A program made the translations under genes and the position numbers. Shown here in pieces: positions 4,218 through 50,078 of a DNA stretch of 64,000 nucleotides. This DNA comes from Halogeometricum rufum (GTDB taxonomy: Archaea > Halobacteriota > Halobacteria > Halobacteriales > Haloferacaceae). Under the pieces are notes generated by a model that did no database searches, was not told where the DNA came from, and saw only the letters and a program-made list of their open reading frames with translations. Each line of letters opens with the position of its first letter. Positions within the stretch are counted from its first letter, which is position 1. The DNA lies in assembly GCF_900112175.1 (NCBI RefSeq), contig NZ_FOYT01000003.1, positions 1-64,000 on the forward strand, read 5' to 3'.

Positions 4218-4239
4218 GGGTCCTCTACGAGCGATGCGT

Positions 4240-4890: not shown

Positions 4891-4896
4891 ACCGCC

Positions 4897-4916: not shown

Positions 4917-4919
4917 CGC

Positions 4920-5345
4920 TCAGGCCGACGATTCGAGGAGGAGGGTCGAGATGGTCGCCGCGGCCGTCTCGAACTCGTCCACGTCCATCGCGTCCGTCGT
5001 GAGGAGGACGCCGTGGTCGCCTTCGAGAATCCGGACGACGAAGCCGTCGCGGTGGAACCGGACGGTGAACTCGTAGTCGCCGATGCCGACCGGGTCCTCG
5101 GCCGCCAGCGCCGACCGAACCGGCGACTCCGCGAACCCCACCGTCTCGAAGTCCACGAGTCGCGCCTTCGCGGTGCGCGCCGCCTCGGGCGACTCGTACA
5201 GGTCGCTCCGGAGATAGACCACGTCGAACGCGGACGGCGTGAAGTAGACGACGCTTCGGAGCGTGTCGCCCAGACCCGTGCGCGCGGCGCCGATTATCCC
5301 CTCCGCCAACTCCGAACCGATTCCCGTGTGGTATTTGTCTGCCAT
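4920..5345 (-). CDS. Conserved haloarchaeal hypothetical protein (141 aa, DUF7522-like)
   Basis: This 141-residue soluble acidic protein has no transmembrane segment and no catalytic motif I recognise. It starts MADKYHTG and contains the segments RSVVYFTPSAFDVVYLRSDL and GDYEFTVRFHRDGFVVRI. Its size and pattern resemble a widespread haloarchaeal family of unknown function (I believe DUF7522; not checked). It is convergent with the aldolase and separated from the galactonate genes by about 125 bp, so membership in the sugar locus is uncertain. Confidence 0.75.
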   Translation of the reverse strand: MADKYHTGIGSELAEGIIGAARTGLGDTLRSVVYFTPSAFDVVYLRSDLYESPEAARTAKARLVDFETVGFAESPVRSALAAEDPVGIGDYEFTVRFHRDGFVVRILEGDHGVLLTTDAMDVDEFETAAATISTLLLESSA

Positions 5346-5469
5346 ACGTCCAGTACTGTCGCTCAGAGACTATCACCGTATCGTCAGACCGCGGAGAGCG
5401 TCCTGACGGCGAGAACGTCGGGAGGGGAACTCCGAAGAACGTCGAGGTGTGCGCCGGAGTCGGTCCGAG

Positions 5470-7424: not shown

Positions 7425-7492
7425 GCTGGGTCGGTCGTTGTGTTCGCTCTCATTTAGCTCTGCGTTCGACGTCCGCTGCGGAGGCGAGCGTC

Positions 7493-8614: not shown

Positions 8615-8618
8615 TGGG

Positions 8619-10542: not shown

Positions 10543-10549
10543 CAGGTGG

Positions 10550-11929: not shown

Positions 11930-11963
11930 TGGTGCTCGTCCTTGAGTCAGTATGAGGAAAGAT

Positions 11964-11971
11964 ACTTATAG
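11964..11971 (-). promoter_or_regulatory. TATA-like element upstream of the importer operon
   Basis: The minus strand reads CTATAAGT here, about 39 nt before ATG 11929. This would give a short (about 12-nt) leader. It suggests the importer operon has its own promoter in addition to any read-through from the beta-galactosidase gene. Confidence 0.5.
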
Positions 11972-12054
11972 ATAACGATTGGTGCAGGTTCGAGCGCGGA
12001 GAGAGGAAGTGAGCGGGAGAGGCAGTGAGCGAGAGAACCGTCGCGACGCCGGCC

Positions 12055-34449: not shown

Positions 34450-35304
34450 CTACAGGTGGATACGGTCACCTATCTGGGCGAGTTCTAACTTGCGCGGGTA
34501 CGAGAACGAGCGGCTGTGTGCACGAATCGACTCCGGGTCGCCGCACAATCCTCGCCAGAGGTCGTAGTGAGACGGGAGCAAACGGTCGAGTTGAAGCATG
34601 TTCGCTGCGGTCACGACTTGATCTTGGTCGTTGTACCACTGAACGGTCCTGGGCTTGTCCTCTTCCGGGAACTGAATTCGTCCTCTGGTGCCGAACGCGA
34701 GTACCCCGAGATCGATATCATACGTCTCTCCTATCTTCGTGAACCCCTCGCACGGAAGGCTATCTCCACCATGGAAGAACGTCCCGCTCTCGTGTTCTAT
34801 CACGTACGAAACCGGGTCTACGCAGTTCGGATCGCGTGCCTCGTGTACGTTGATAGTGAACTCACCGACGGTGACCTTATCTGCTTCCGAGACGGTGTTG
34901 AGCTGGCTCGGTGAGATGTCCCACGAGTCTTGCCAGCGTTCTGTTTCGATGAGACGAATGCTCTCTTCGGGTGCATAGAGCTGAGCAGCCGTCCGCTCCA
35001 ACATCGGTGCCTGACTGGCTTCGTGTCGATGGTCCGAGTGTTCGTGACTGATGAGCAACGCGTCGAGCGAGGACACGTCGTTCGGGTCGAACGGGACCGG
35101 AATCATTCGGATAGTCCGCGGTCTCGATGGGACGTGCAGGTCACCCGTCCCGAGGTACGGGTCGATATAGATGGTGGTTCCGGTCCGGTCCTTCAACAGG
35201 AATCCGTTGCCACCTAGAAACCAGACGGCAACGCCGTCCGTCGTTGCGTTCCTCACTCGACGCAGTAACCAATCTCCCCAATCGCTGTGAATCGTCGGCG
35301 TCAT
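34450..35304 (-). CDS. UlaG-like metallo-beta-lactamase-fold hydrolase (possible lactonase)
   Basis: This 284-residue MBL-fold protein has a metal site His87-x-His89-x-Asp91-His92 in ISHEHSDHRH, a further ligand in FFHGGDSLPCEG, and a late His in LLPSHYDLWRG. It resembles UlaG (L-ascorbate-6-phosphate lactonase) relatives rather than beta-lactamases or glyoxalase II. In this island the attractive substrate is the aldarolactone released by the uronate dehydrogenase at 44190, but no sequence feature proves that. It is the last gene of the minus-strand array, 64 bp beyond the UxuA-like gene. Confidence 0.82.
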   Translation of the reverse strand: MTPTIHSDWGDWLLRRVRNATTDGVAVWFLGGNGFLLKDRTGTTIYIDPYLGTGDLHVPSRPRTIRMIPVPFDPNDVSSLDALLISHEHSDHRHEASQAPMLERTAAQLYAPEESIRLIETERWQDSWDISPSQLNTVSEADKVTVGEFTINVHEARDPNCVDPVSYVIEHESGTFFHGGDSLPCEGFTKIGETYDIDLGVLAFGTRGRIQFPEEDKPRTVQWYNDQDQVVTAANMLQLDRLLPSHYDLWRGLCGDPESIRAHSRSFSYPRKLELAQIGDRIHL

Positions 35305-35368: not shown

Positions 35369-36451
35369 TCACGATTCGTCCGTCGTGGTTCCCTCTCGAT
35401 CGATATTTCTGAGCAGCCCTCGAATGTACCCCGCGGTGTACGCCCGGGCACGAGGGCCGCCCTTCGGATACCCGTCCATCGATTCCGAGTTCGGCTCGTC
35501 CCAACTCACATCCCCGTTCACACGAGGGACGTGGTCTGGATTGACCGAACCCTTGAACCCGACTTCCTTGAGCGCCCTGATGACTGACGTCTCGTCGTAG
35601 TTACTCCGCGGATCGTCCAAGAACGTCTCCGTGAATCGGGGGACGGTTCCGATAACATCTCGGAAATGAACGAACACTATCTCGTCTCGTTCTCCGAAGT
35701 GGCGAACGACGTCTACGACGTCCTCGCCCATCTCCGAGAAGCACCCCAGACAGAGTTTTATCCCGTGACTGGGGCTTTCGGTGATGTCCATCGCCCGTTC
35801 GAAGTGGTCGCGATTCCGGAGCAGTGATGCCGTTCCGTCCAGTTTCTCGTAGAGTGGTGGGTCAGCGGGGTGGACTGCCAATCGTACGCCTTCCTCTTCG
35901 GCGACGGGGACGATTTCGTCGAGGAACATCTGGTAGTTTCTCCACAGTTCCTCTTCGCTGACGTCGTGCTTCGTCTTTTCGTCGTTCCTGACGGTGTCCT
36001 CCTCGTCGAAACTCGCCGCACGGGCACCGCCTCTGACACGTTCTTCGTGGGTGGTCCTCTGAACCTCGCCCGCCATCCACTTATATCCGAGTATCGGGAT
36101 ATCCGCCCGCCCAAGATTTCGCGTGAGTTCGACGAGCGAATTCATCTGATTCCACTTTCCGGGTTCGTCGAACAGTATCTTATCGTACGCCGAAATCGGA
36201 ATCGAGTGGAGTCCGGAAAATCGCAGGCCGGCGTCCGTCAAGCGTTGGTTCAGCCTCTCCAGTCTCTCGACGGAAGGGACGTGGTCTTCGCCGAACTGTA
36301 GGGTTTCAGGGCTCGAACCGGCCGGTTCCGGGTCGACGTACACGTCAGAAACGCCGATCTGTCTTAAGTAAGCGAGGCGCGCGTCCGTGAGAACCTTTGT
36401 TCGCATCCCCAGTCGAATCGACTCTTCTGCTCTCATCGAATCAGCTCCCAT
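35369..36451 (-). CDS. Mannonate dehydratase-like protein A (UxuA fold)
   Basis: This 360-residue TIM-barrel protein resembles UxuA. The metal ligands are recognisable: His in LAVHPADPPLYE, Cys in GIKLCLGCFSEMGEDV, His in IVFVHFRDV and Asp in NPDHVPRVNGD. Classical UxuA has LCxGxLG and PDHG at these places, so this is a divergent clade. It probably dehydrates an aldonate or epimerises a related acid. Start ATG 36451 is fixed by a TATA box 26 nt upstream; an ATG at 36436 is the alternative. A paralogue with the same motifs is at 45091-46152. Between residues about 148 and 185 is a charged insertion. Confidence 0.83.
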   Translation of the reverse strand: MGADSMRAEESIRLGMRTKVLTDARLAYLRQIGVSDVYVDPEPAGSSPETLQFGEDHVPSVERLERLNQRLTDAGLRFSGLHSIPISAYDKILFDEPGKWNQMNSLVELTRNLGRADIPILGYKWMAGEVQRTTHEERVRGGARAASFDEEDTVRNDEKTKHDVSEEELWRNYQMFLDEIVPVAEEEGVRLAVHPADPPLYEKLDGTASLLRNRDHFERAMDITESPSHGIKLCLGCFSEMGEDVVDVVRHFGERDEIVFVHFRDVIGTVPRFTETFLDDPRSNYDETSVIRALKEVGFKGSVNPDHVPRVNGDVSWDEPNSESMDGYPKGGPRARAYTAGYIRGLLRNIDREGTTTDES

Positions 36452-36473
36452 AGCGAGATGTTCCCCTGAACGA

Positions 36474-36481
36474 TATATAAA
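36474..36481 (-). promoter_or_regulatory. TATA box of UxuA-like gene A
   Basis: The minus strand reads TTTATATA centred 26 nt from ATG 36451. This strong box decides the start of the gene. Confidence 0.72.
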
Positions 36482-36593
36482 TCCCCACTCCATCGTTCCA
36501 CTCGAATGTACCACGTATATTCGAGACTATCGCCTCTCAGCGGCGGAGGTCTGGAGTCTCTGACCCGTTTCTTGGTCCGGAACGAACATATGA

Positions 36594-37140: not shown

Positions 37141-38070
37141 TCAGAGCGTATCGTCGATGAACGATTCGAGGTCCTCGTAGAGGTCTCTCGCGCGTTCGTA
37201 CTCGCGGTCTGAGAGCTCGACGAGGGGCTCCCGGACGCGACCCCCGGTGAGTCCGGCGAACTCCATCCCCGCTTTCACCGCCGGGATGCTGTTTCCGACG
37301 GGGAGCGTGTTTCCCTCTCCGGGTTCGTGGCGAAACCGCATGTATGGCGATGTCGCGTCTCGAATCCGGCGTGCCAACCCCGTGTCGTCGCGTTCGAGTG
37401 CGTCGAAGAGGGCGCGCCCGATTCTCGGCTCGAAGTTCCCGATTCCCGACGCCATCCCTTCTGCGCCCTCGTAGTAGAGGGCGATCGCGTGCAGTTCACC
37501 CAGTCCGTTTATCCAGACGACGTCGTCGCTCCCCGCTTCGACGGCCGCCGAGAACGTGGGAAGGTCCTCCAGCGTCCATTTGATGCCGATGACGCTCTCC
37601 AGTTCCGTGAGGTCGGCGAGGAAGCCGACCGAGGGGTCGAATCCCCGAATGTAGGGGACGAGCGGAATATCGACGGCCTCGCCGATTCGACCGTAGTACG
37701 AGAGCAGTCCTCGTTCGTGTTTGTACGTGTGGTGCGGCGGCATTACGAGGAGGACGTCCACGCCGACGTCCTCGAACTTGGCTCCGAGTTCCCTCGCCGC
37801 CTTCGTGCTGCCTCCGACACCGGCCATCACGCAGGCGTTCGCGGGAAGCGCGTTCACGCTCGTTTCCGTTACTGCGATACGCTCCTCGTGTGACAGCGAG
37901 TGGTACTCGCTGACGTTCGAGCAGGCGAACAGCGTGTCGATGCCCTGCTCGGCGATCGCGTGCGCGTTCGCCGCGAGTGCGTCGTGGTCGACCGAGAGTG
38001 AGTCATTGAACGGCGTCACGAGCCCGGTTATCGCGTCTCGCAAGTGGTGTCTGACTTCGTTCCTGTCCAT
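37141..38070 (-). CDS. DapA-family lyase A (dihydrodipicolinate synthase-like)
   Basis: This 309-residue TIM-barrel protein has the class I lysine Lys164 in VIGIKWTLED and Tyr140 in VPYIRGFDPS. The substrate loop that reads GTTGE in DapA and AGGTGEF in KDG dehydratase is here CSNVSEYHSLS. It therefore belongs to a divergent branch, shared with the protein at 49140-50078 (41 ANISEYHALS-like loop and YVRGFDPS). In context it should dehydrate/decarboxylate or cleave a 2-keto-3-deoxy acid. Leaderless start at 38070 is supported by a TATA box at 38092-38100. Confidence 0.87.
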   Translation of the reverse strand: MDRNEVRHHLRDAITGLVTPFNDSLSVDHDALAANAHAIAEQGIDTLFACSNVSEYHSLSHEERIAVTETSVNALPANACVMAGVGGSTKAARELGAKFEDVGVDVLLVMPPHHTYKHERGLLSYYGRIGEAVDIPLVPYIRGFDPSVGFLADLTELESVIGIKWTLEDLPTFSAAVEAGSDDVVWINGLGELHAIALYYEGAEGMASGIGNFEPRIGRALFDALERDDTGLARRIRDATSPYMRFRHEPGEGNTLPVGNSIPAVKAGMEFAGLTGGRVREPLVELSDREYERARDLYEDLESFIDDTL

Positions 38071-38182: not shown

Positions 38183-39013
38183 TTACGACATGGCGAACGC
38201 GTTACCGATGTACCGACGAGCGATTAGGTAGAGTACGAGCGGCGGCGTCCCCATGATTATCGTCGCGGCCATCATGCGACTCCAGAGAATCTGTTCGCCT
38301 GAGTGGACCGTCTTGTACAGCGCGACCGGGGCGGTCTTCGGTCCGAGGTTGTTGGTGAGGACATTCGAGAACAGGAAGTCGTTCCACCCAGAGAGGAACG
38401 ATAGGAAGCCGACCGCTATGATGGCTGGCCCCGCAAGCGGGAGGATCACCCGGATGAACGCCTGAAACTGGGTGAGTCCGTACATCTGAGCCGCCTCTTC
38501 GAGGTTGTCAGGAAGCCCCTCGAAGAAGTCGCGGAGGACCCAGAGTGCGAACGGTGTGACGAACGCCTGATAGGCCACCCAGAGCCCCGGAATCGTGTTG
38601 TAGAGCCCGTACTGAATCCACCAGTCGGTGTACGGAATCACCAGAATGATGTACGGGAACAACAGCGACCCGATTATGAGGTAGAACCCGAGTTCCTTCC
38701 CCGGGAAATCCTTCCGTCCGAACGCGTACGCGCCCGGAATCGAGATGAGAAGCGAGAGGACTGCCGTTCCCAGTCCCACGATGAAACTGGTGATGAGCGG
38801 CCCCCCTAGGTCGGCGAAAGCGTTCTCCCACGCCGTCAGCGTCGGGTTCACCGGAATCAGGTTGTAACTGCTGAAGATGGCCTCCGGAGACTTGAACGAC
38901 GAGAAGACGACGATGAAGTACGGTATCAGTATTATTCCGACTAGGAAGAGGATGACCGCGTAGCTCGAAGCGGTCCAGAACCAATCGGACGCGGACCGGT
39001 TGTGAGCGCTCAT
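38183..39013 (-). CDS. Sugar-acid ABC transporter permease (MalG type)
   Basis: This 276-residue protein has six transmembrane helices and the EAA loop EEAAQMYGLTQFQAFIRVILP. It is the second permease of a CUT1-type importer; its start overlaps the preceding permease stop by 4 bp (ATGA). Companion genes are the other permease (39010), the lipoprotein (40062) and the ATPase (41706). The adjoining uronate genes suggest uptake of uronates or short oligouronides. Confidence 0.92.
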   Translation of the reverse strand: MSAHNRSASDWFWTASSYAVILFLVGIILIPYFIVVFSSFKSPEAIFSSYNLIPVNPTLTAWENAFADLGGPLITSFIVGLGTAVLSLLISIPGAYAFGRKDFPGKELGFYLIIGSLLFPYIILVIPYTDWWIQYGLYNTIPGLWVAYQAFVTPFALWVLRDFFEGLPDNLEEAAQMYGLTQFQAFIRVILPLAGPAIIAVGFLSFLSGWNDFLFSNVLTNNLGPKTAPVALYKTVHSGEQILWSRMMAATIIMGTPPLVLYLIARRYIGNAFAMS

Positions 39014-39945
39014 GCGACCTCACCTCCTCGCTGCTGTCGGAACTCACGGATGAACACGAACGTGAACCCGATAGTGAGGACGAACAAGATGACTCCGACG
39101 GTGAACGCCAGTCCGAGGTCCCCCTGCGTGAGCGTGAACCGGTACAGGAGGATAGCAAGAATCGACGACTCGTACCCCGGTCCGCCCTGCGTCATCTGGA
39201 GCGGCTGAGAGACCTTCACGAGGTTCCGGATGATTCGGAGGCTGATGGCGATGAGCATCGCGCTTTTCATATAGGGGAGGGTGACGTACCGGAAGCGCTG
39301 GAGCCGGTTCGCGCCGTACACCTCGGCCGTTTCGTAGTGTTCGTCCGGGATGCTCTGTATCGACGCGATGAAGATGAGATACATGAACTGCCAGAACGTC
39401 CACGACCCGACGAGAGTGACGACGGTGATGGCCGACGACCCGTCGATTCCCCAGTAGATGGGGCTGTCAAGGATACCCCAGCTCGTGAGCCAGCCGAACA
39501 CTGGGCCGTAGTTCGGGTTGAGGATGTATAGCCAGATGGTCCCGGTCACGACCGGCGGCATGGTGTACGGGATGAGGAACATCCCGTCTGCCAAGTCGTC
39601 GAATCGCTTGAGCTTCCGAACGGACAGCGTCGCCGCGAGTGCGAGCGCGAACTGGATTATCGTCATCGACATGTAGATGAGTGTCGCTCGCACCGACACC
39701 CAGAACGTGTCCCACTCGAAGACGTAGACGTAGTTGCTGAGACCGGTCCACTCGTGCTGACCGAAGGCTGGCCAGACGTGGAAACTCATCCAGATGCCCC
39801 GCAGGAACGGGAACCATACGACGAGTAGTAAGAACAGGAGCGTCGGTGCGAACAGGAGATACGAGAGCCAGTGCTCCTGTACCGCGTCCCGAGCGGTACG
39901 GTACGATTCGCGAGGTAGGCCGATTCGTGTGAACGTCTCTAACAT
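39010..39945 (-). CDS. Sugar-acid ABC transporter permease (MalF/UgpA type)
   Basis: This 311-residue protein has six transmembrane helices and the EAA loop ETAEVYGANRLQRFRYVTLP. It pairs with the MalG-type permease through a 4-bp gene overlap. It lies 116 bp downstream of the solute-binding protein gene, without a clear promoter of its own, so I place it in the same transcript. Confidence 0.92.
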   Translation of the reverse strand: MLETFTRIGLPRESYRTARDAVQEHWLSYLLFAPTLLFLLLVVWFPFLRGIWMSFHVWPAFGQHEWTGLSNYVYVFEWDTFWVSVRATLIYMSMTIIQFALALAATLSVRKLKRFDDLADGMFLIPYTMPPVVTGTIWLYILNPNYGPVFGWLTSWGILDSPIYWGIDGSSAITVVTLVGSWTFWQFMYLIFIASIQSIPDEHYETAEVYGANRLQRFRYVTLPYMKSAMLIAISLRIIRNLVKVSQPLQMTQGGPGYESSILAILLYRFTLTQGDLGLAFTVGVILFVLTIGFTFVFIREFRQQRGGEVA

Positions 39946-40061
39946 GTTATCAGTCTGAAATACAGCGGGGGTTACCCCACTCCGAATACGTGTTCTGCGT
40001 GCGTTTCGATGTCATACCACAATGTGTCTCCTGGTCACGGACTAATAAATGTGGAGGTCCC

Positions 40062-41558
40062 TCACCGACTGAAGACCTGTTGTCGGATCTGGCTTGCGGC
40101 CTGATTGCACGCTTCCTCGGGCGAGAGTTCGCCTGTCATCGCCTGCTGGAATATCGGACCGGAGATGTTGTACTGGACGGCGGCCATCTCGGGGAACGCC
40201 TGCCAGCCGTACTCCGACTCCTCGGCGATGGCAATCCCCGCTTCCACGGCGTTGTTCTTCAGCGTCGGGCTCTCTTCCCACGCGTTCCGGTTGAACGGGA
40301 GCAGACCCCACTTCGTGAACGCCTTCTTCTGCACTTCGGTACTCAGCATCGTGTCGATGAACTCGATACCGGCCTGTCGTTGGCGTTCCCACTTGGCGGA
40401 CGACACGTTCGGCGGCTTCGAGCCCAGAGCCAGCGCCGTGGCGTTGAACTCGCCGCGGAACCCGGACTCGCCTTTCCAACTCGCGCCGTACCGCAGCGTC
40501 CCGTTTTCGAGCATGTCGGGTGCCAAGTTCGAGAGCAGACCGTAGTTGAGCATCCCGACCTGACTCATGCTCGCCCTGCCGTCGGCGAGGAAGCGACAGG
40601 CGTCCTCGTCGGACGTCGTCGCCGAGTTCTCCGCGGAGAGACCCATCTCCCGGTATATTTCGACCTGTCGGCGCAGGGATGTCTTCCACGCGTCCGAGTC
40701 GAGGTGCGTGTCCGACCAGTCGGCGTTGACGTACAGTCCCTGCTCTCCACCGATCGCGTGAGCCCACGTCGGCGATATCTCGTCCATCAGGTCACCCGGC
40801 GCACCGTGGACCTGGAACCCGATGTCACCCGGCCCGTCCTTCTGGAGCGTTTTCGCGATGTCGATCAGTTCGTCGTAGTTCTTCGGCGGGAAGTCGGTCT
40901 CGATGTCGAGTCCGGCTTCCTCGAAGTGGTCCGCGCGGGCCACGAACGGTTCTTGCATCACGAACCCGAGAAGCGCCGTCTTGAGTTTGTTGTCCTCGAA
41001 GCCGCGGTAGATGTTCTCGACGACGGGCTGTGCCCACTCGGTTCCCGACACCACATCGTCGCTCAACTGGTCGAGGACCGATCCCCATGGCGTGACGTAC
41101 CCTGCGTCGATGAGACCTCCGATTCGAGAGGGTGCGGTCTGGTACAGCGTCGGAATCTGGCCCTGCGCCATCCGCTGTCGCCAGTTCCCGTTCTGGACGT
41201 TCGAGACGGTCTCTTTGATCCACTGGACGCTGTTGCCGGTTCGCTGCTCGTACGCCTTGATGGTCTCGTCCAGGAACTGCTCTGCGACTTTGGACTGCCC
41301 GTGCAAGGTTGTCCACAGCGTTATCGTGGTCCCGTTCGCGTTCTTCTCGCTCCCGCCCGTGGTGGCAGTTCCTCCGCCCCCACTGGCGTCTGTCGTCCCA
41401 CCGTTACCGCTACCGCCGTTCCCTCCGGCGCAGCCGGCGAGCCCCGCAACGCCCGCCACACCGAGAGACTTCAACGCTCGACGACGTGAGATGCCGAGCG
41501 TGGCGTTGGTCGAGTTGCTACTGTATCCGGTCGCCTCACTGTTGCCATTGTTTGGCAT
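40062..41558 (-). CDS. Sugar-acid ABC transporter solute-binding lipoprotein (Tat-exported)
   Basis: This 498-residue protein carries a twin-arginine signal (GISRRRALKSLGVAGVAGLA) with lipobox Cys43, then a Gly/Ser/Thr linker (44-75) and an SBP family-1 domain. The longer N-terminal region before the RR pair (24 residues) is unusual compared with the galactoside lipoprotein at 10550. Its promoter box TTTTATTAATG lies 28 nt upstream. It should bind the imported uronate-containing sugar at the cell surface. Confidence 0.93.
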   Translation of the reverse strand: MPNNGNSEATGYSSNSTNATLGISRRRALKSLGVAGVAGLAGCAGGNGGSGNGGTTDASGGGGTATTGGSEKNANGTTITLWTTLHGQSKVAEQFLDETIKAYEQRTGNSVQWIKETVSNVQNGNWRQRMAQGQIPTLYQTAPSRIGGLIDAGYVTPWGSVLDQLSDDVVSGTEWAQPVVENIYRGFEDNKLKTALLGFVMQEPFVARADHFEEAGLDIETDFPPKNYDELIDIAKTLQKDGPGDIGFQVHGAPGDLMDEISPTWAHAIGGEQGLYVNADWSDTHLDSDAWKTSLRRQVEIYREMGLSAENSATTSDEDACRFLADGRASMSQVGMLNYGLLSNLAPDMLENGTLRYGASWKGESGFRGEFNATALALGSKPPNVSSAKWERQRQAGIEFIDTMLSTEVQKKAFTKWGLLPFNRNAWEESPTLKNNAVEAGIAIAEESEYGWQAFPEMAAVQYNISGPIFQQAMTGELSPEEACNQAASQIRQQVFSR

Positions 41559-41580
41559 GCTATCGTGTCTCTTTCGTGCA

Positions 41581-41591
41581 CATTAATAAAA
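41581..41591 (-). promoter_or_regulatory. TATA box of the solute-binding protein gene
   Basis: The minus strand reads TTTTATTAATG centred 28 nt before ATG 41558, consistent with a leaderless mRNA. Confidence 0.65.
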
Positions 41592-41705
41592 CTATCTGAA
41601 ATATATCTTATATTCGGCGAACAGACGGAGGCGGCAACGGAGTGGCGGTGTTCGCGAGCGCGCAGTCGAAGAAGGGGCAGGGGTCACGGAGCGTCGACTC
41701 GGCGG

Positions 41706-42845
41706 TCAGATAATTCGCTGTCCCCGTTCGTCGAATAGCCAGACGTTCTCGCGGTCGATGTCGACGGAGACCCGATCTCGCTCGCCCGACAGAACACCCT
41801 GATTGACCGTCGCTGCGAGGTTGATGCCGGACTCGGTGAGGTACACCGCGTCACGGGCGCCGTGCGGTTCGACCAGTTCGACGTCCGCTTCGAACAGCGA
41901 CGTCTCCGGCTGGAGGTCGAGGTGTTCGGGGCGGACAGCGAGCGTCAACCGGTCGCCTCGACTGACGTTCGCCGACTGCGCTGCGCTTTCGGCGAACTCG
42001 ACGTCGAACAGGTCTGTCGAGACGACGAGGCCGTCCGACGTGTCGGTCACGCTACCTTCCAGTTCGTTGATGGAGGGTGAGCCGATGAATCGGGCGACGA
42101 ACACGTTCTCCGGGTCGTTGTATATCTCGTGTGGGTTGCCGACCTGCTGGATGTGACCGTCGTCCATGACGACGATTTTGTCACCCAGCGTCATCGCCTC
42201 TTCCTGGTCGTGCGTGACGAATATCATCGCCGTCCCGAGTTTACGCTGGAGACGCTTCACCTCGGTCCGCATCTGGTCGCGCAGTTGGGCGTCGAGCGCC
42301 GAGAACGGTTCGTCGAGCAGGAACGCGGCCGGGTTCATCACCATCGCTCGCCCGAGACTGACGCGCTGTTGTTGCCCTCCCGAGAGCGCTGACGGCTTTC
42401 TGTCGAGCAGTTCACCGATGTCCAGCATCTCCGCCACCTCCTCGACTCGTTCTCGTTTCTCCTCCTTCGAGAGGTCGGTCTTCATGTCGAGCCCGAATCG
42501 GATGTTCTCACGCACGCTGAGGTGCGGGAAGAGCGCGATCGACTGAAAGACGAACGCGAGGTCCCGGTCTTTCGGTTTGTCCGTCGTCACGTCCTCCCCG
42601 TCGATGCGAATACTCCCGTCATCGGGTTGTTCGAGTCCGGAGATACAGCGGAGCGTCGTCGTCTTCCCGCATCCCGACGGGCCGAGGAACACGACGAACT
42701 CGTCGGCCGCGATGTCGAGAGAGATGTCCTCGCACGCGACGACTTCCCCCTGATTGAAGGTCTTCCGTATGTTGTCGACCTCGATTCGACTGTCGGTAGA
42801 CTGTAGACTCGTCTGAGACCCGGACTCTGTTTGTTCTGCCGCCAT
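41706..42845 (-). CDS. Sugar-acid ABC transporter ATP-binding protein
   Basis: This 379-residue ATPase has Walker A GPSGCGKTTTLRC, Q-loop VFQSIALFPH, signature LSGGQQQRVSLGRA, Walker B FLLDEPFSALD and H-loop FVTHDQEEAM. A MalK-like C-terminal TOBE domain follows (about 235-375). The start is ATG 42845, 26 nt after a TATA box; a TTG three codons upstream is less likely. It is transcribed first in the minus-strand array and is divergent from the enolase-superfamily gene. A second importer ATPase, at 7493, serves the galactoside locus. Confidence 0.94.
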   Translation of the reverse strand: MAAEQTESGSQTSLQSTDSRIEVDNIRKTFNQGEVVACEDISLDIAADEFVVFLGPSGCGKTTTLRCISGLEQPDDGSIRIDGEDVTTDKPKDRDLAFVFQSIALFPHLSVRENIRFGLDMKTDLSKEEKRERVEEVAEMLDIGELLDRKPSALSGGQQQRVSLGRAMVMNPAAFLLDEPFSALDAQLRDQMRTEVKRLQRKLGTAMIFVTHDQEEAMTLGDKIVVMDDGHIQQVGNPHEIYNDPENVFVARFIGSPSINELEGSVTDTSDGLVVSTDLFDVEFAESAAQSANVSRGDRLTLAVRPEHLDLQPETSLFEADVELVEPHGARDAVYLTESGINLAATVNQGVLSGERDRVSVDIDRENVWLFDERGQRII

Positions 42846-42866
42846 AGTCGACAAGTCTCCTCATCG

Positions 42867-42989: not shown

Positions 42990-44150
42990 ATGGTAATCGA
43001 ATCAGTCGAAGCGATTCCGCTCGAGTACCGACTCCCGGACGGCCGTCGGTTCGGCGGTTCGCGGGGTATCACAGGAACTCGAAACGCGACGCTCGTACGC
43101 GTCGAAGCCAGCGACGGAACGGTCGGATGGGGTGAGGCGTTCGCGCCGCCCCGGTCGGTCGCCACGGTGGTCGAAGAAGTCGTCGCGGACTACGTCGTCG
43201 GGCGTGACCCCCGCAACGTCGAGACGTTGACGGCGGACGTCTACGCCGGTAGCTACCACTTCGGACGGGGGCCGCTCGTACACAGCGCCGTGAGCGGCGT
43301 GGACGTCGCGCTCTGGGACGTCATCGGCAAGCAGACCGGCCGCCCGGTCCACGAACTCCTCGGGGTGACCGAAGGCGTCGAGTTTCTGGAGGGGCGCGAC
43401 GCCACCTCGGTCGTTCCCTACGCCTCGACGATGTACATTACCGAGTGGGGAGAGGACCCCGCGGAGCCGATTCGTGACGCGGTGAACGAAGGGTTCGACG
43501 CGGCGAAGATCAAGATCGGACGCGGACTCGAAGACGACGTCGAGCGGGTGAAGACCGCGCGTGAACACCTCGGCGACGACGCGGACCTCATGGTCGATTT
43601 CAACGGCAACTACCGACCAAAGCAGGCTGCGCGCGTCATCGAGGCGCTCGAACCGTTCGACCTCACGTGGGTCGAAGAACCGGTTCCGCCGGAGAACGTC
43701 TCGGGATACCGCGACCTCGCGCGGTACACGAACGTTCCCTTGGCGGCGGGCGAGGCACACTACAGTCGCTTCGAGTTCAAACGGCTCGTCGACGACCGAC
43801 TCGTTGACGTCGTCCAGCCGAACATCGGCCACTGCGGTGGGTTCTCCGAGGCCAGATTCATCGCGAAACTCGCGACGACTGAGAACGTCACCGTCCGCCC
43901 CCACGTGTGGAACTCCGGCGTCGGGGTCGCGGCGGCCGTCCAGTTCGCCGCGAGCGTACCGACTTACCCGCACGCGGGCGCCAATCCCGACCCGATGCTG
44001 TTCGAATTCGACCGCAGCGAGAACCCGCTTCGCCACGAAATTCTCGAGGACCCCCTCGATCCGTCCGGCGGGGAACTCGCCGTCCCCGACGACCCCGGTA
44101 TCGGCGTGACCGTCGATACTGACGCCGTCGAGAGGTACCGCGTAGACTGA
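42990..44150 (+). CDS. Enolase-superfamily enzyme 1 (mandelate racemase/muconate lactonizing type)
   Basis: This 386-residue protein shows a full set of active-site residues: Lys173-x-Lys175 (AAKIKIG), metal ligands Asp203 (MVDFNGNY), Glu229 (WVEEPVPPEN) and Glu255 (AAGEAHYSR), and His305 (RPHVWNSG). The two lysines and the His fit a dehydratase, racemase or cycloisomerase on an acid sugar. Directly upstream of the uronate dehydrogenase gene, it is a good candidate for aldarate (glucarate or galactarate) dehydratase or aldarolactone cycloisomerase. It starts MVIESVEAIPLEYRLPD with a leaderless promoter. Confidence 0.88.
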   Translation: MVIESVEAIPLEYRLPDGRRFGGSRGITGTRNATLVRVEASDGTVGWGEAFAPPRSVATVVEEVVADYVVGRDPRNVETLTADVYAGSYHFGRGPLVHSAVSGVDVALWDVIGKQTGRPVHELLGVTEGVEFLEGRDATSVVPYASTMYITEWGEDPAEPIRDAVNEGFDAAKIKIGRGLEDDVERVKTAREHLGDDADLMVDFNGNYRPKQAARVIEALEPFDLTWVEEPVPPENVSGYRDLARYTNVPLAAGEAHYSRFEFKRLVDDRLVDVVQPNIGHCGGFSEARFIAKLATTENVTVRPHVWNSGVGVAAAVQFAASVPTYPHAGANPDPMLFEFDRSENPLRHEILEDPLDPSGGELAVPDDPGIGVTVDTDAVERYRVD

Positions 44151-44157
44151 CCCAAAC

Positions 44158-44165
44158 CGTTATCT
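44158..44165 (+). promoter_or_regulatory. TATA box of the uronate dehydrogenase gene
   Basis: CGTTATCT, centred 28 nt before ATG 44190, lies in the 39-bp gap after the enolase-superfamily gene. The downstream gene can therefore be transcribed on its own. Confidence 0.5.
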
Positions 44166-44189
44166 GGGCGTCCCCGGAACAGTTCTTTC

Positions 44190-45041
44190 ATGCGCGTACT
44201 AATCACCGGTGCGTACGGTCGCTGTGGAACCGCGCTCATCGACCACCTCGACGACGGCGGCGAACACGAGTTCACGTATCTCAACCGCTCGGACCGTCCT
44301 GACGACCATCCGTACGGCAACCACGACACGTATCTGGCCAACGTGGCCGACTACGAGGCGATGCACCCGGCGTTCGAGGGGCAGGACGCCGTCGTCCATC
44401 TGGCCGGCCACCCGTCCGTAGACGGGCCGTGGCCGGACATCCTCGAATCCAACATCGTCGGGATGTATAACGCGCTGGAGGCCGCCCGAGAGCACGACGT
44501 CGGGACGTTCGTGTTCGCCTCGACGAACCACGTGATGGGGATGTACGAGACGGAGTTCGCCCCCGAGTTGTACGAGCCCGGGTTCGATCTCACCGTCGAC
44601 CACACCGACCCAGTCCGTCCGGACTCCTACTACGGTACCTCGAAGTCCTTCGGCGAGGACCTCGGCCGCTACTACGTCGAGAATTACGACGCGCCGACGA
44701 AGTTCTACGCCCTCCGCATCTGTAGCGTCCGCATGCCCGAGTACGACCATCCCTACGGCGACGCGGAGTACGGCGTCGAGAACGGGGAGTTCGAGCGGGG
44801 GAGCGACGCCTACGTGCGCGAAGTGAAGCGAATGAAATGTACGTGGCAGTCCCGGCGGGACTTCGCCCACCAAGTTGAGCAATGCCTCCGTGACGACGAT
44901 GTCCAACACGGCGTCTTCTACGGCGTCAGCGACAACGACCGCCGGTGGTTCGATATCGAACACGCCCGCGACGTCATCGGGTACCAACCGCAGGACAACG
45001 CCGAAGACTGGGACGAACCGCCCGCCGGGTCGCTCGATTGA
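44190..45041 (+). CDS. udh: Uronate dehydrogenase (NAD-dependent, SDR-extended)
   Basis: This 283-residue Rossmann protein has the cofactor loop ITGAYGRCGTALIDHL, the catalytic Tyr148-x3-Lys152 in SYYGTSKSFGED, and VVHLAGHPS and FASTNHVMG segments. These resemble bacterial uronate dehydrogenase (about 265 aa). It oxidises D-glucuronate or D-galacturonate with NAD+ to the aldarolactone. It follows the enolase-superfamily enzyme by 39 bp in the same direction, matching a uronate, aldarate, keto-deoxy-aldarate order. An ordinary NAD-dependent epimerase is the alternative. Confidence 0.85.
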   Translation: MRVLITGAYGRCGTALIDHLDDGGEHEFTYLNRSDRPDDHPYGNHDTYLANVADYEAMHPAFEGQDAVVHLAGHPSVDGPWPDILESNIVGMYNALEAAREHDVGTFVFASTNHVMGMYETEFAPELYEPGFDLTVDHTDPVRPDSYYGTSKSFGEDLGRYYVENYDAPTKFYALRICSVRMPEYDHPYGDAEYGVENGEFERGSDAYVREVKRMKCTWQSRRDFAHQVEQCLRDDDVQHGVFYGVSDNDRRWFDIEHARDVIGYQPQDNAEDWDEPPAGSLD

Positions 45042-45090
45042 CGCCGCCGAAGAGCGTACCGTCGTCTGCGGTGGTCGGGTCGGAGTCGGG

Positions 45091-46152
45091 TCACCGCTCG
45101 GTTTCCACCGTATCGACGACACCCCGGAGATATCCCACCGTAAACGACCGGGCCCGGTGGCGCCAGTCGTCGTCGCCCACCATCTCCGGGACGTGGTCCG
45201 GGATGACGACGCCGTCGTAGCCGACGTCGTACAGCGTTCGCACGACGTTCGCCGTGTCGAAGTTCCCCTCGTCGACGAACGTCTCGTGGAACTTCGGCAT
45301 CGTCCCAACGACGTCGCGGAAGTGGATGAACACGATCTGGTCGCGTTCGCCGAACCGCCGAAGCACCTCGTGGACGTCCGCCCCCATCTGCGAGAAACAG
45401 CCGAGACAGAGCTTTAGCCCGTGGTTGTCGCTCGGGACGAGTTCCATCGCTCGCTCGAAGTTCTCGACGTTGCGAAACAGTCTCGGGATGCCCCCGAGCG
45501 ATTCCAACACGGGCGGATCGACGGGGTGAAGCGCGAGGCGGACCCCCGCCTCCTCTGCGACCGGAAGCACCGTCTCCAGAAACCACTCGTAGTTCTCCCA
45601 GAACTCCTCCTCCGTGTAGGCGCGGTCCAGTCCCGGCGCGAGTTCGTCGGGGTCCGAAATCTCGTCGAGGTCGAAGGCCGTTCCGACGGCCTTCCCCCGA
45701 AGTTCGACCGGCGTCGTCCGCATCGGGACGACGCCGCGGGGGTTCCACTGGTACCCGAGTATCGGAACGTCGGCCGCACCGAGATTCCTGATGAGGGTGG
45801 TTATCTGTTCGAGTGCCTCATCGGCCCCCTCGCGGTCGAACATGATGTCGCCGTATAGCGAGTACGGCAGCGACTGGATGCCTATGAAGCTGAGCCCTTC
45901 TGCTTCGAGGCGAACCTTCGCCGCCTCCAGTTCCGACACTGTCGGTATCGAGTCGCGCCCGACAGCGATGGTGTCCGCACCCTCCCGGTCGTTGAACTCA
46001 TCCGGTTCCTCCTCTGTGTCGGCGTGGTCGACGAAGACGTCCGTCGCGCCGAGCTGGCGGATGAACCGGAGGCGGTCGGTCGCGAGACTCCGTGTTCGGA
46101 CACCCACGCGAACCGCACCGTCAGTCTCGTCTCTCGTTCGGCCTTTTGGCAT
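45091..46152 (-). CDS. Mannonate dehydratase-like protein B (UxuA fold)
   Basis: This 353-residue paralogue of the 35369-36451 protein has the same motifs: LALHPVDPPVLES, LKLCLGCFSQMGADV, VFIHFRDVVG and IPDHVPEMVGDDD. Around residue 150 it has its own charged variable region. Both therefore form one divergent UxuA-like clade. It stands convergent with udh and divergent from the aldehyde dehydrogenase gene. A leaderless promoter box lies 27 nt upstream of ATG 46152. It may act on an epimer that the other paralogue does not. Confidence 0.84.
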   Translation of the reverse strand: MPKGRTRDETDGAVRVGVRTRSLATDRLRFIRQLGATDVFVDHADTEEEPDEFNDREGADTIAVGRDSIPTVSELEAAKVRLEAEGLSFIGIQSLPYSLYGDIMFDREGADEALEQITTLIRNLGAADVPILGYQWNPRGVVPMRTTPVELRGKAVGTAFDLDEISDPDELAPGLDRAYTEEEFWENYEWFLETVLPVAEEAGVRLALHPVDPPVLESLGGIPRLFRNVENFERAMELVPSDNHGLKLCLGCFSQMGADVHEVLRRFGERDQIVFIHFRDVVGTMPKFHETFVDEGNFDTANVVRTLYDVGYDGVVIPDHVPEMVGDDDWRHRARSFTVGYLRGVVDTVETER

Positions 46153-46175
46153 GGCTCTTACTCAGAGGAGTGGGG

Positions 46176-46183
46176 CTAAATTA
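46176..46183 (-). promoter_or_regulatory. TATA box of UxuA-like gene B
   Basis: The minus strand reads TAATTTAG, centred 27 nt before ATG 46152, giving a leaderless mRNA. Confidence 0.6.
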
Positions 46184-46296
46184 CTACTGGTGATTCGCCC
46201 CGTTCGTCCGGCCCGGCCGGTGTGGACGATGCGGCAGAAGCCGCAATAACCACCGATACACGAAGAAGAGTGTAGACGGACGCCGAACCGTCACTC

Positions 46297-47745
46297 GTGG
46301 TAGACAGTAGCCGTAACTACGTCGACGGACAGTGGAGCGAAACGAGAACCGGGGACACGGTGGACGTCGTCAACCCCGCGAATCCGACCGAAACTATCGC
46401 GCGGTATCAGCAGTCGGGCGTCGCGGACGCGAACGAAGCCGTCGAAGCGGCGTCGAAGGCGGCCGAAGCGTGGGCGAACACCGCTGGACCCGAACGCGGG
46501 GCGGTGCTCCGCGAAGCCGGGAAGCGTCTGGACGCCCGGACGGACGAACTCACGGACCAGTTAGTGGCCGAGGAGGGGAAGGCCCGGCCGGAGGCGGCGG
46601 GCGAAGTTCAGCGCGCGGTCGATATCTTCTACTACTTCGCGGAGAAGGCGTCCGACCTCGGTGGAACGGTGAAGGGGCCGAGCGGACGGAACACGAACCT
46701 CTACACGCGGGAGGAGCCCGTGGGCGTTGCTGCGCTCATCACACCGTGGAACTACCCCATCGCCATCCCGGCGTGGAAACTCGCGCCCGCCCTCGCCGCG
46801 GGTAACACCGTCGTCCTCAAGCCTGCTTCCCTCGCCCCCGGCCCGGCACTCGCCCTCGCAGAGGCACTCGACGAGGCGGGCCTGCCCGACGGCGTCTGCA
46901 ACGTCGTCACCGGCCCCGGAAGCACGGTGGCGAACGCGTTCGTCCAGCACGAAGCCGTGGATGCCGTCTCGTTCACCGGTAGCAGTCACGTCGGCGAGAT
47001 GGTGTACGACCAGGCGACCGACGAGGGGAAACGCGTCCAGACGGAGATGGGCGGGAAGAACCCCACCGTCGTCGCCGCGTCGGCCGACCCCGCGGAGGCG
47101 GCGGAAATCGTCGCCGCGGGCGGGTTCGGCACCACCGGGCAGTCCTGCACCGCGTGCTCCCGCGCCATCGTCCACGAGGACGTGTCCAACGACTTCGTGG
47201 CCGAACTGGTCGACCGCGCCGAGTCCGTCGACGTCGGCCCCGGCCTCGAACACGAGATGGGGCCGCACGTGAGTCAGGACGAACTCGACTCGACGCTCGA
47301 ATACGTCGACGTCGCGCAGAACGAGGGTGCGACGCTCGCCTCCGGTGGCGGCGTCCCCGAGGGCGAGGCCGTCGAAGACGGCTACTTCGTGGAACCGACG
47401 GTGTTCACCGACGTGGAGTCGGACATGCGCATCGCTCAGGAGGAAGTGTTCGGCCCCGTCGTCGCCGTCATCGAAGTGTCGGACTTCGAGGAGGGAATTG
47501 AAGTCGCCAACGACGTGCCGTACGGGCTTTCGGCCAGCGTCGTCACCGACGACCACACCGAGGCCAATCGGTTCGTCGACGAGGCCGAAGCGGGCGTCGT
47601 GAAGGTGAACGAGAAGACGACGGGCCTCGAACTGCACGTGCCGTTCGGCGGGTTCAAACGCTCCTCCTCCGAGACGTGGCGCGAACAGGGCGACGCCGGA
47701 CTCGACTTCTACACCATCGAGAAGACCGTCTACGACAACTACTGA
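46297..47745 (+). CDS. Aldehyde dehydrogenase, probable alpha-ketoglutarate semialdehyde dehydrogenase
   Basis: This 482-residue ALDH has the catalytic Cys284 in TTGQSCTACSRA, Glu250 in QTEMGGKNPTVV, and the C-terminal PFGGFKRSSSETWREQG that recalls haloarchaeal alpha-ketoglutarate semialdehyde dehydrogenases of pentose pathways. It would turn alpha-ketoglutarate semialdehyde, the product of keto-deoxy-aldarate dehydration/decarboxylation, into alpha-ketoglutarate. The start is GTG 46297; no clear TATA box was seen at the standard distance. It sits among uronate genes, which fits the last step of the oxidative pathway. Confidence 0.86.
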   Translation: MVDSSRNYVDGQWSETRTGDTVDVVNPANPTETIARYQQSGVADANEAVEAASKAAEAWANTAGPERGAVLREAGKRLDARTDELTDQLVAEEGKARPEAAGEVQRAVDIFYYFAEKASDLGGTVKGPSGRNTNLYTREEPVGVAALITPWNYPIAIPAWKLAPALAAGNTVVLKPASLAPGPALALAEALDEAGLPDGVCNVVTGPGSTVANAFVQHEAVDAVSFTGSSHVGEMVYDQATDEGKRVQTEMGGKNPTVVAASADPAEAAEIVAAGGFGTTGQSCTACSRAIVHEDVSNDFVAELVDRAESVDVGPGLEHEMGPHVSQDELDSTLEYVDVAQNEGATLASGGGVPEGEAVEDGYFVEPTVFTDVESDMRIAQEEVFGPVVAVIEVSDFEEGIEVANDVPYGLSASVVTDDHTEANRFVDEAEAGVVKVNEKTTGLELHVPFGGFKRSSSETWREQGDAGLDFYTIEKTVYDNY

Positions 47746-47785
47746 CGGGCCGGGGCACCGTCGCTGGTGCCGAACGCGGTGGCGG

Positions 47786-49009
47786 TCACTCCTCGTCGTA
47801 GTGGAACTCCGTCCACGGACCTTCGATGTACTCGTACTCGTCGAGTATCGACTCGTTTATCTCGACGCCGAGCCCGGGACTGTCGGACAGTTCGAGACAG
47901 CCGTCGTCCACCTCCAACGTCGAGACGAGGACATCCTCTGCGAGTGGGAACGGGTACATCGCCTCGACACCGTCGCCGAAGACCGGGTACTCGAGTCGGA
48001 CGTCCTCCGGCGACGCCGCCACGAGATGAGCGTTGGCGACGAGACCGAGGTTCGTGCCGAAGTTGTGCGGGACGAACGTCACGTTCTCGCGATCGGCGCA
48101 CCGTTCGACGCACTCCCAGCATCCGGTGAATCCGGCGTGGTGGCGGACATCCCCCTGTAGGAAGGAGACTCCAGTGTCCGAGAGTCGCCGAAGCCCCGCG
48201 ACAGACTCCTCACTCTCGCCGCCCGCGAGGGGAAGGGTCGTGTCGGACGCCAGTCTCCGGTACGCGCCGTAGTCCATCGGTTCGACTGGCTCCTCTATCC
48301 AGAAGGGTTCATACGCCGCGAACCGTTCGAGCAACTCGACGACTTGGTCGTACGAGTACGATCTGTCGCCGAGTTTCCACCAAGTGTGGGCGTCCACCAT
48401 GAGGTCCATCTCGTCGCCGACAGCCTCTCGGATGAGTCGGATAGTCCGTTCGTCTTCGTCCGGTCCGAGTCCGGGGCGGTACTTGTACGCCGAGAATCCC
48501 CGTTCCTGAAGGGCTTCGGCTTGTTCCGCGTATCCCTCGGGTTCCATATACATGCCCGCGCTCGCGTAGAGCTCGAGCGGGTCTGGTTCGACGCATGCGT
48601 CCGACAACAGCTCGTAGACCGGGGCACCCCGCTCCTTCCCGAGCAGGTCGAAGTAGGCGACGTCGACGACGCTGAGCGCTTCGGACTCCAGTTTTGTCGG
48701 CAGTCCGAGGGTGCGGATGGCTTCGTGAAAGTCTTCCGGCTTCGAGATTTCGACGCCGGCGAGCGCATCCCGCACGTGAGTCTTCAGGAGGTCGGCCAAG
48801 TCCTCTGCCGACGCTCCCTCGAAGTACTCCCGCATGGCGGAACTCGAAGCGGCGGCGGGTGCGTACCCCACTAGCCCGTCCGCCGTAGTAACCGTGGCGA
48901 GCGCGAAGTCCCGCTTCAACAGCCGTCGGACACCGCCGTAGAACTCGCGTTCTTGCGGGGGTTCGATAGCGGAGGACAGTGTGTGAACGTTAATATCGAC
49001 TACTCTCAT
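47786..49009 (-). CDS. Enolase-superfamily enzyme 2 (MR/MLE type)
   Basis: This 407-residue protein has a first acid/base motif KYRPG instead of KxK, metal-ligand segments MVDAHTWWKLGD, WIEEPVEPMDYG and GGESEESVAGLR, and a His in FVPHNFGTNLG. The KYR motif points to a different reaction from enzyme 1 (K-x-K), perhaps a dehydratase with another chirality or a racemase. The start ATG 49009 is decided by a TATA box 26 nt upstream; a frame extension to 49099 is excluded. It is divergent from DapA-like gene B across 130 bp. Confidence 0.85.
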   Translation of the reverse strand: MRVVDINVHTLSSAIEPPQEREFYGGVRRLLKRDFALATVTTADGLVGYAPAAASSSAMREYFEGASAEDLADLLKTHVRDALAGVEISKPEDFHEAIRTLGLPTKLESEALSVVDVAYFDLLGKERGAPVYELLSDACVEPDPLELYASAGMYMEPEGYAEQAEALQERGFSAYKYRPGLGPDEDERTIRLIREAVGDEMDLMVDAHTWWKLGDRSYSYDQVVELLERFAAYEPFWIEEPVEPMDYGAYRRLASDTTLPLAGGESEESVAGLRRLSDTGVSFLQGDVRHHAGFTGCWECVERCADRENVTFVPHNFGTNLGLVANAHLVAASPEDVRLEYPVFGDGVEAMYPFPLAEDVLVSTLEVDDGCLELSDSPGLGVEINESILDEYEYIEGPWTEFHYDEE

Positions 49010-49139: not shown

Positions 49140-50078
49140 ATGCCACTGTCAGCCGACGGTGTCAGGAGTCATCTCCGTGGCGTTGCGGTCGGACTCCTCA
49201 CGCCGTTCGACGACTACCTCGAGATTGAACACGACAAACTGGCCGAAAACGCGAGGATGATCTCGAAAGAGGGAATAGACACGTTCCTCACGGCAGCGAA
49301 TATCAGCGAATACCATGCCCTCTCACAGGACGAACGCATCGCGGTCACGGAGACGAGCGTGAACGCCCTCTCCTCGGACGCGTGCGTCCTCGCTGGCGTC
49401 GGCGGCAGCGTCGACAACGCGACCAAACTCGTCGAGGCGTACGACAGAGTCGGCGTCGACGCTATGATGATCATGCCGCCGGACTTCACCTACCTCCACG
49501 AACGCGGACTCCTCGACTACTATCGGAAACTCGGCTCGGAGACGGAGACGCCACTCGTTCCGTACGTCAGGGGGTTCGACCCATCGACCGACTATCTCGC
49601 TGATTTGACGCGAATCGACGGCGTCGTCGGAATCAAGTACGCGCTCGAAGACTCGGTGAAACTCGGGGAGGGGGCGACTGAAGGAGCAGACGACGTGGTC
49701 TGGGTGAACGGACTCGCTGAACCGTTCTCGGTATCGCACTGGGCTGAGGGTGCCGAGGGATTCTCGGCGGGCGTGAGTAACTTCCGACCCGAGGTGGGCC
49801 TCGCGTTGTTCGACGCGCTGTCCGAGGGAGACTGGAGACGGGCCAGAGAGCTGCGGAACATCTGCATGCCATACCAGCGCTTCCGCGAAGAGACTGGCGA
49901 CGACAACGAGATAGAGGGTGCGGTTAGCGTCCCTGCCGTCAAAGCGGGTCTCGAACTCGCCGGCCTCCACGGCGGCAACGTTCGCGAACCGATTCGACCG
50001 TTGTCGGAGGCAGACCGAACGCGGGCCGAACGACTTTACGACCGACTAGACGCCGACATCGAACGTCTCATCGACTGA
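49140..50078 (+). CDS. DapA-family lyase B (dihydrodipicolinate synthase-like)
   Basis: This 312-residue paralogue of the protein at 37141-38070 has Lys166 in VVGIKYALED and Tyr142 in VPYVRGFDPS. Its substrate loop reads ANISEYHALSQDE where DapA has GTTGE. The two lyases share the same divergent loop, so they form one family branch. One of them probably makes alpha-ketoglutarate semialdehyde from keto-deoxy-aldarate, as KDG dehydratases do. The other may cleave a related acid. Its leaderless promoter is back-to-back with that of enolase-superfamily gene 2. Confidence 0.86.
   Translation: MPLSADGVRSHLRGVAVGLLTPFDDYLEIEHDKLAENARMISKEGIDTFLTAANISEYHALSQDERIAVTETSVNALSSDACVLAGVGGSVDNATKLVEAYDRVGVDAMMIMPPDFTYLHERGLLDYYRKLGSETETPLVPYVRGFDPSTDYLADLTRIDGVVGIKYALEDSVKLGEGATEGADDVVWVNGLAEPFSVSHWAEGAEGFSAGVSNFRPEVGLALFDALSEGDWRRARELRNICMPYQRFREETGDDNEIEGAVSVPAVKAGLELAGLHGGNVREPIRPLSEADRTRAERLYDRLDADIERLID

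Follow-up and report, generated by a model that had tools for sequence, protein, structure and literature searches.

The bacterial oxidative route for hexuronates comprises Udh, Gci, KdgD and a semialdehyde dehydrogenase, as outlined in the excerpted text of PMC6353982. A reference point for proton removal in the enolase superfamily is mandelate racemase, in which, according to the available portion of PMC9835602, Lys 166 takes the proton of (S)-mandelate and His 297 that of (R)-mandelate. Our literature search, which left most subscription journals outside its coverage, found no description of an oxidative hexuronate pathway in archaea. Here we describe two enolase-superfamily enzymes, E1 (42990..44150, + strand) and E2 (47786..49009, − strand), encoded 3.6 kb apart in 64,000 nucleotides of DNA from Halogeometricum rufum (contig NZ_FOYT01000003.1, positions 1 to 64,000 of the forward strand; hereafter the window). 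The two proteins carry opposite sets of catalytic residues, each conserved among haloarchaea, and their genes usually occur together. To the reading that we favour, a hexuronate pathway with a Lys-base E1 and an E2 working on the opposite face, we give even chances as a whole. If true, it would yield candidate genes for oxidative hexuronate breakdown in archaea.

Catalytic residues of E1 and E2

Both proteins score above the Pfam cut-offs for MR_MLE_N (22 bits) and MR_MLE_C (29.4 bits), E1 with 67 and 229.7 bits and E2 with 30.7 and 162.9 bits. E1 is a full-length open reading frame (ORF) of 386 amino acids with K173-x-K175, D203-x-N205, E229, E255, N278 and H305. E2, with 407 amino acids, carries K176-x-R178, D206-x-H208, E239, E265, D287 and H315. 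Its start is the ATG at 49009, from which the orthologues align; there is also a longer version of the ORF, starting with the TTG at 49099. Orthologues were sought in 292 genomes of the class Halobacteria (threshold for E1, E below 1e-120), and 30 sequences of each enzyme, window copies included, were aligned, the 30 E2 loci being drawn from 39 matches in 37 genomes. All the E1 residues named above are invariant in 30/30 orthologues, as are those of E2 together with Y177. This includes the metal carboxylates D203, E229 and E255 of E1 and D206, E239 and E265 of E2; the mandelate racemase counterparts are D195, E221 and E247. Invariance extends to 128 of the 407 E2 positions. An in-frame stop, away from the catalytic residues, is present in the E2 copy of one genome within the 30 (G108) and of one outside them (G228).

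An earlier note on this DNA had picked out KxK (K173-I-K175) plus His305 in E1 and KYR (K176-Y-R178) plus the His of PHNFG (H315) in E2. Both motif sets are borne out in open ORFs, and their conservation in all 30 orthologues of each enzyme places the difference between them beyond chance. The note further argued that differing acid/base sets predict differing stereochemistry, and here the sets differ more sharply than it had claimed. In E1, Asn278 replaces the Asp of the superfamily His-Asp dyad, a position at which bacterial E1 relatives have Asp. E2 retains the dyad Asp (D287) and has lost the second Lys, and its metal strand reads D206-x-H208, compared with D203-x-N205 in E1.

With KxK and Asn278, E1 looks like a Lys-base type of enzyme, whereas E2, with KxR, D-x-H and D287, looks like a His-base type. 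Since each would keep one proton-removing arm, the two probably differ in the sugar acid that they act on, or else attack positions of opposite mirror-image configuration. Applied to these residue sets, the base rule of mandelate racemase implies that the two enzymes should favour opposite faces, and we consider it somewhat more likely than not that they do. The mapping onto mandelate racemase uses motifs and the multiple alignment rather than a residue-level superposition.

A peptide-pattern scan of 84,980 species genomes confirmed 108 E2 relatives, of which the best 80 were kept; 56 of these 80 loci and 28 reference rows make up a wider signature table. The E1 signature K-K-D-N-E-E-N-H is found in 10 of 11 E1 rows, and Asn at the dyad position is confined to E1 rows. 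For the E2 signature K-R-D-H-E-E-D-H, KxR is present in 34 of the 35 haloarchaeal E2-type rows (KxH in the other), and D-x-H and the His-Asp pair are retained in all 35. KxR instead of KxK is also seen in rows L178, L179, L187 and L188, which are other superfamily members. Among the best 80 of the 108 confirmed relatives, those with at least 44% identity to E2 are exclusively haloarchaeal, the remainder reaching at most 34%. E1 and E2 share 29% identity and lie in separate clades, each strongly supported (100/99 and 100/100), in a tree of 47 rows. Ten rows that are short or degenerate (L163-L166, L168, L169, L175, L180, L185, L193) are absent from this tree; of the 35 E2-type locus rows from haloarchaea 25 were dropped, as were Halarch_E2 and Hdap_E2 among the reference rows.

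Three side observations concern E2-like proteins. Distant acidobacterial relatives (L163, L165, L166) have the signature K-E-D-R-E-G-D-G, in which Gly takes the place of the third metal ligand and of the His, and are perhaps non-catalytic or functionally different. Next to E2, Halarchaeum encodes an enolase-like protein (L101:9774-10901) that has diverged strongly and has Gly where the dyad Asp would stand. Finally, there is a striking accumulation of enolase-superfamily genes on two haloarchaeal plasmids, with 18 E2-like places on NZ_CP100455.1 and 16 on NZ_CP119783.1.

Co-occurrence and the surrounding cluster

Across the class, E1 is found in 31 genomes, E2 in 37 and both in 28 (Fisher p 5.5e-28, kinship ignored); three genomes have E1 without E2 and 9 of the 37 have E2 without E1. 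In the two-enzyme genomes the genes lie less than 4 kb apart in 23 cases, 4–20 kb apart in 2, and farther apart or on separate contigs in 3. Taken with the low identity and the separate clades, co-occurrence in 28 of 31 E1 genomes argues against plain redundancy and thus indirectly supports the earlier view that the two are unlikely to be redundant. The case for the pair is modest but well conserved.

Directly downstream of E1, a short-chain dehydrogenase/reductase (SDR; 44190..45041, + strand) is related to uronate dehydrogenases. It matches four PDB sequences at 1e-15 (best 1.3e-32), three labelled uronate dehydrogenase (one of them a mutant) and the fourth, 3ay3, epimerase/dehydratase; its best NCBIfam model is Azf, a relative of uronate dehydrogenase, at 195 against a cut-off of 400. 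An SDR orthologue (at least 60% identity) is present in 31/31 E1 genomes, 4/9 E2-only genomes and 51/292 overall. Between E1 and E2 lies a 2,5-dioxovalerate (alpha-ketoglutarate semialdehyde) dehydrogenase (46297..47745, + strand), which scores 879.3 bits with the equivalog model NF052305 (cut-off 750). The window also encodes two KdgD-like members of the dihydrodipicolinate synthase (DHDPS) superfamily, 52% identical to each other. KdB (49140..50078, + strand) has Y142 and K166, scores 142 bits with PRK03620 (cut-off 278) and is a predicted 5-keto-4-deoxyglucarate dehydratase/decarboxylase. KdA (37141..38070, − strand) has Y140 and K164 and scores 155.9 bits with the same model.

A probable ABC importer (38183..42854, − strand), read by eye, consists of two permeases, a solute-binding protein (40062-41558), for which an NCBIfam scan gave no match, and a MalK-type ATPase (41706-42854). 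Two UxuA-like proteins of the mannonate dehydratase family, 47% identical to each other, are encoded on the − strand: UxB, a TIM barrel (45091..46152; PF03786, 153.5 bits against 23.7; NCBIfam, 127.9 against 191), and UxA (35369..36514; PF03786, 156.5 bits). Elsewhere, a UxuA-like gene 58–62% identical to UxB adjoins the SDR gene, in Halomicrobium urmianum (L110:6821-8849), where a lactonase-family gene stands next to the pair, and at G181:C2, G197:C3, G097:C43, G243:C8 and G265:C3. Such a gene is a possible alternative dehydratase for the hexuronate pathway. A metallo-beta-lactamase (MBL)-fold hydrolase (34450..35304, − strand) shares 40% identity with its MBL counterpart in the plasmid pHTUR02 cluster described below. 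Farther away, at 4234-14061, a galactonate dehydratase gene (6276-7424; 670 bits against a cut-off of 311) lies beside an apparent ABC importer and an apparent beta-galactosidase gene (12055-14061), both read by eye; this is probably a separate galactoside cluster.

Gene maps around E1 and E2, made by tblastn, cover 49 places selected for holding either gene, or 46 distinct ones because L104, L106 and L112 duplicate L083, L100 and L082. On Haloterrigena turkmenica pHTUR02 the genes run pectinesterase, E2, DHDPS protein, E1, universal stress protein, SDR, MBL protein and aldehyde dehydrogenase (ALDH), with a rhamnogalacturonan acetylesterase annotated nearby. The Halostagnicola larsenii cluster comprises E2, DHDPS protein, E1, SDR, MBL protein, ALDH and a pectate lyase. 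Four pectinolytic references, taken from L101, L104 and L112, matched in 11 of the 46 places (L065, L066, L067, L079, L082, L083, L087, L091, L093, L095, L101), a count that includes three reference sources or places on the same plasmid and stands without a random-region control.

Predicted pathway and competing explanations

On the basis of these gene families, the cluster probably encodes an oxidative, non-phosphorylated hexuronate pathway. Hexuronate oxidation by the SDR would give an aldarolactone, from which elimination of the beta oxygen by an enzyme of the enolase superfamily would produce a 2-keto-3-deoxy-hexarate. A KdgD-like enzyme would convert this to 2,5-dioxovalerate, and the dehydrogenase would yield 2-oxoglutarate. 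The genes, their residues, conservation and linkage, and the family of the final dehydrogenase are direct observations, from which the pathway, the faces and the substrates are inferred. The adjoining uronate-dehydrogenase-like SDR suggests aldarolactones, beyond free aldarates, as candidate substrates. In E1, acting as a cycloisomerase-like enzyme or a dehydratase, Lys175 would remove the C5 proton; His305 lacks an Asp partner and would more probably serve as an acid or binding group than as a base. In E2, the base would be His315-Asp287, H208 the likely acid, and Lys176 and Arg178 would bind or polarise the carboxylate.

Configurations, with Cahn–Ingold–Prelog descriptors assigned by hand, constrain the substrates that opposite faces could tell apart. 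D-galactarate and D-glucarate are C4 epimers, and C5, counted from the former aldehyde, is S in both; bacterial Gci, in the excerpted text of PMC6353982, converts both galactaro- and glucaro-lactone to one product. A change of face would therefore not separate glucarate from galactarate. Opposite faces could instead separate C5 epimers, D-glucarate from L-idarate for example, or one end of an aldarate from its other end. The earlier proposal of two epimeric aldarates accordingly holds for C5 epimers and fails for the C4 pair, and mannonate, which it listed among the substrates to assay, is an aldonate rather than an aldarate. Because C5 is S in the lactones derived from D-galacturonate or D-glucuronate, a Lys-base E1 would suit these SDR products. 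A His-base reaching from the other face would have E2 take an R-configured alpha carbon, which suits an L-idarate-type (C5-epimeric) compound, galactarate or glucarate attacked at its C2 end, or a galacto- or gluco-type aldonate.

A more elaborate version is unlikely as it stands. It would have the two-base site of mandelate racemase divided between E1 (the Lys arm) and E2 (the His-Asp arm), which would then serve parallel branches for hexuronates of both C5 configurations (D-galacturonate/D-glucuronate and L-iduronate/L-guluronate), or for both ends of a meso aldarate, meeting at the achiral 2,5-dioxovalerate. At least two KdB matches (1e-40) are found in 21/28 two-enzyme genomes, 0/3 E1-only and 4/9 E2-only genomes, a weak hint of such parallel stereochemical branches. 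Strict pairing of E1 and E2 with a DHDPS type of their own (KdB or KdC) was not seen: many two-enzyme genomes have only the KdB type, and 7 of the 28 have just one KdB match, which counts against it.

Several observations weigh against the hexuronate reading with its Lys-base E1 and opposite-face E2. An E1 relative from Haladaptatus YSMS36 (L105:12266-13399, 63% identical), which branches within the E1 clade, carries Asp at the dyad position, so Asn is not fixed across all E1, and the KxR/DxH signature recurs in the haloarchaeal paralogue HdYS_MRb. The tree joins E1 with Streptomyces, Jiangella and Halomonas-type proteins (99/99) and separates it from the stand-ins for Gci, which are Shinella and Pseudosulfitobacter proteins picked by their gene neighbours, the Agrobacterium sequence not being among the rows. 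Around three outgroup loci of E1 (L170, L173, L177), a scan of ten neighbouring proteins gave no uronate hint. KdA (130.7) and KdB (119.1) stay below the KdgD model TIGR03249 (cut-off 373.95), although no models match them better than PRK03620 and KdgD. The SDR occurs without E1 in 20 of its 51 genomes. In Halarchaeum CBA1220, the 23 kb mapped hold E2, SDR, DHDPS protein, ALDH and pectate lyase and no E1, and no E1 of at least 57% identity is among the matches listed for its plasmid. The Halocatena marina RDMS1 plasmid carries E1 and ALDH, and E2 is not on it. Either enzyme may be sufficient alone. As to diet, the window genome gave no PF00544 or GH28 match; we therefore reject pectin for this strain and regard monomers or other uronates as likelier. 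Haloarchaeal isolates carrying pectinolytic genes failed to grow on pectin in the part of PMC9726719 at hand; the excerpted PMC12343721 likewise gives, for one isolate, marginal or no liquid growth on galacturonate and its polymers.

Among the alternatives, the one that survives best, though fairly unlikely, is that E2 dehydrates hexonates (aldonates) or acts on another sugar acid fed through the same transporter and lower pathway, so that the pair reflects dietary breadth and no stereochemical partnership. The D-x-H plus His-Asp set of E2 is that of galactonate dehydratase, and of the nine 20-kb places around E2 in the genomes without E1, 6 hold a DgoD-like, 4 a UxuA-like and 5 a hydroxyacid-dehydrogenase-like match; in Halorubrum CBA1229, E2 stands together with a UxuA-like gene and an ALDH. 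However, E2 accompanies E1 in 28 of 31 genomes, in 23 of the 28 at close range, and lies far under the galactonate dehydratase cut-off (PRK14017, 311 bits; E1 221.5, E2 90.4). Other family identities likewise fell under the NCBIfam cut-offs and were rejected: L-talarate/galactarate dehydratase (NF047820, 500; E1 148.2, E2 78.8), D-mannonate dehydratase ManD (NF043051, 550; E1 164.6, E2 76.8), rhamnonate dehydratase and, for E1, glucarate dehydratase (TIGR03247, 828.7; E1 28, E2 not listed at E 0.001). No curated NCBIfam model matched by E2 reaches its cut-off.

It is improbable that E1 and E2 are alternatives for one lactone or aldarate, co-retained for regulation or kinetics. The E2-only Halarchaeum cluster and the E1-only Halocatena plasmid, each retaining further pathway genes, speak for this idea, but the 29% identity, the separate clades and the opposite invariant catalytic sets run counter to it. 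Still less probable is a cluster for pentonates rather than hexuronates, in which E1 and E2 would be arabinonate or xylonate dehydratases feeding 2,5-dioxovalerate. The 2,5-dioxovalerate dehydrogenase family also serves pentose oxidation, and both enzymes match the arabinonate dehydratase model, if weakly (E1 182.5, E2 74 bits); its cut-off, however, is 650, so that this identity too was rejected, three of the four solved SDR relatives are uronate dehydrogenases, and related clusters have pectinolytic neighbours. Moreover, L-KDA dehydratase has Glu in place of Tyr, according to the excerpt of PMC13398020, and the Tyr is kept in KdA and KdB, for which this identity was rejected. Least credible of all is that E1 or E2 is an epimerase preparing the other's substrate by 1,1-proton transfer: racemases and epimerases are frequent in the mandelate-racemase-like subgroup and the two genes are close together, but each enzyme is without one residue of the two-base arms, even if an Arg, or a His that has no partner, might do the work.

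Comparison with known systems

The closest PDB sequence to E1 is 4ggb/4hpn, the proposed Agrobacterium galactarolactone cycloisomerase Gci (4.1e-71), which is also the top fold match of the E1 model (pLDDT 86.3; Z 46.9, root-mean-square deviation 2.5 Å over 368 residues, 38% identity). KxK, D-x-N and the His are shared with bacterial relatives adjoining kdgD, and KdgD-like genes lie near E1 too; a Shinella relative 40% identical to E1 adjoins kdgD, kduI, kduD and an amidohydrolase gene (PLSDB annotation). No amidohydrolase is listed in the haloarchaeal E1/E2 clusters inspected, for which the PLSDB gene tables are incomplete. The differences are the modest identity, Asn278 in place of the dyad Asp, and a position outside the clade of the bacterial stand-ins. 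Thus, E1 may work in a Gci-like manner although, judged by the stand-ins, it falls outside the Gci clade, and a function as lactone cycloisomerase is plausible, if slightly short of an even chance. The YSMS36-type E1 with Asp would be a natural reversal or an independent change, and is a candidate for biochemical comparison.

For E2, the closest PDB sequence is 5olc (2.1e-36), the Zobellia 3,6-anhydro-D-galactonate cycloisomerase, whose title indicates ring-opening elimination chemistry. However, identity is 30% over 347 residues and its Z of 41.5 is below those of 3bjs (44.6), 3ozm (44.3) and 4hpn (43.9; E2 model pLDDT 87.6), so no functional neighbour of E2 stands out. These near-tied top rows are uncharacterised or diverse, and fold comparison gave no verdict on E2. 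The window's galactonate dehydratase shares with E2 the D-x-H motif, the His-Asp dyad and the missing second Lys, but the two are 28% identical and E2 stays far below that family's threshold. In galactonate dehydratase, the His residues have assigned roles, that of D-x-H being the acid.

At the level of the whole cluster, the haloarchaeal genes parallel the bacterial oxidative route of Udh, Gci, KdgD and semialdehyde dehydrogenase. At the level of the active site, the parallel is with the mandelate racemase variants D270N and K166R (PDB 1dtn, 1mra and 1mdl, by their titles), since E1 has Asn, and E2 has Arg, where those variants have theirs. Whereas those are laboratory-made racemase variants, E1 and E2 are natural families. 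If our reading is true, these two families would represent in nature the states that mandelate racemase attains through mutation alone, and would offer a clean test of how the base relates to stereochemistry.

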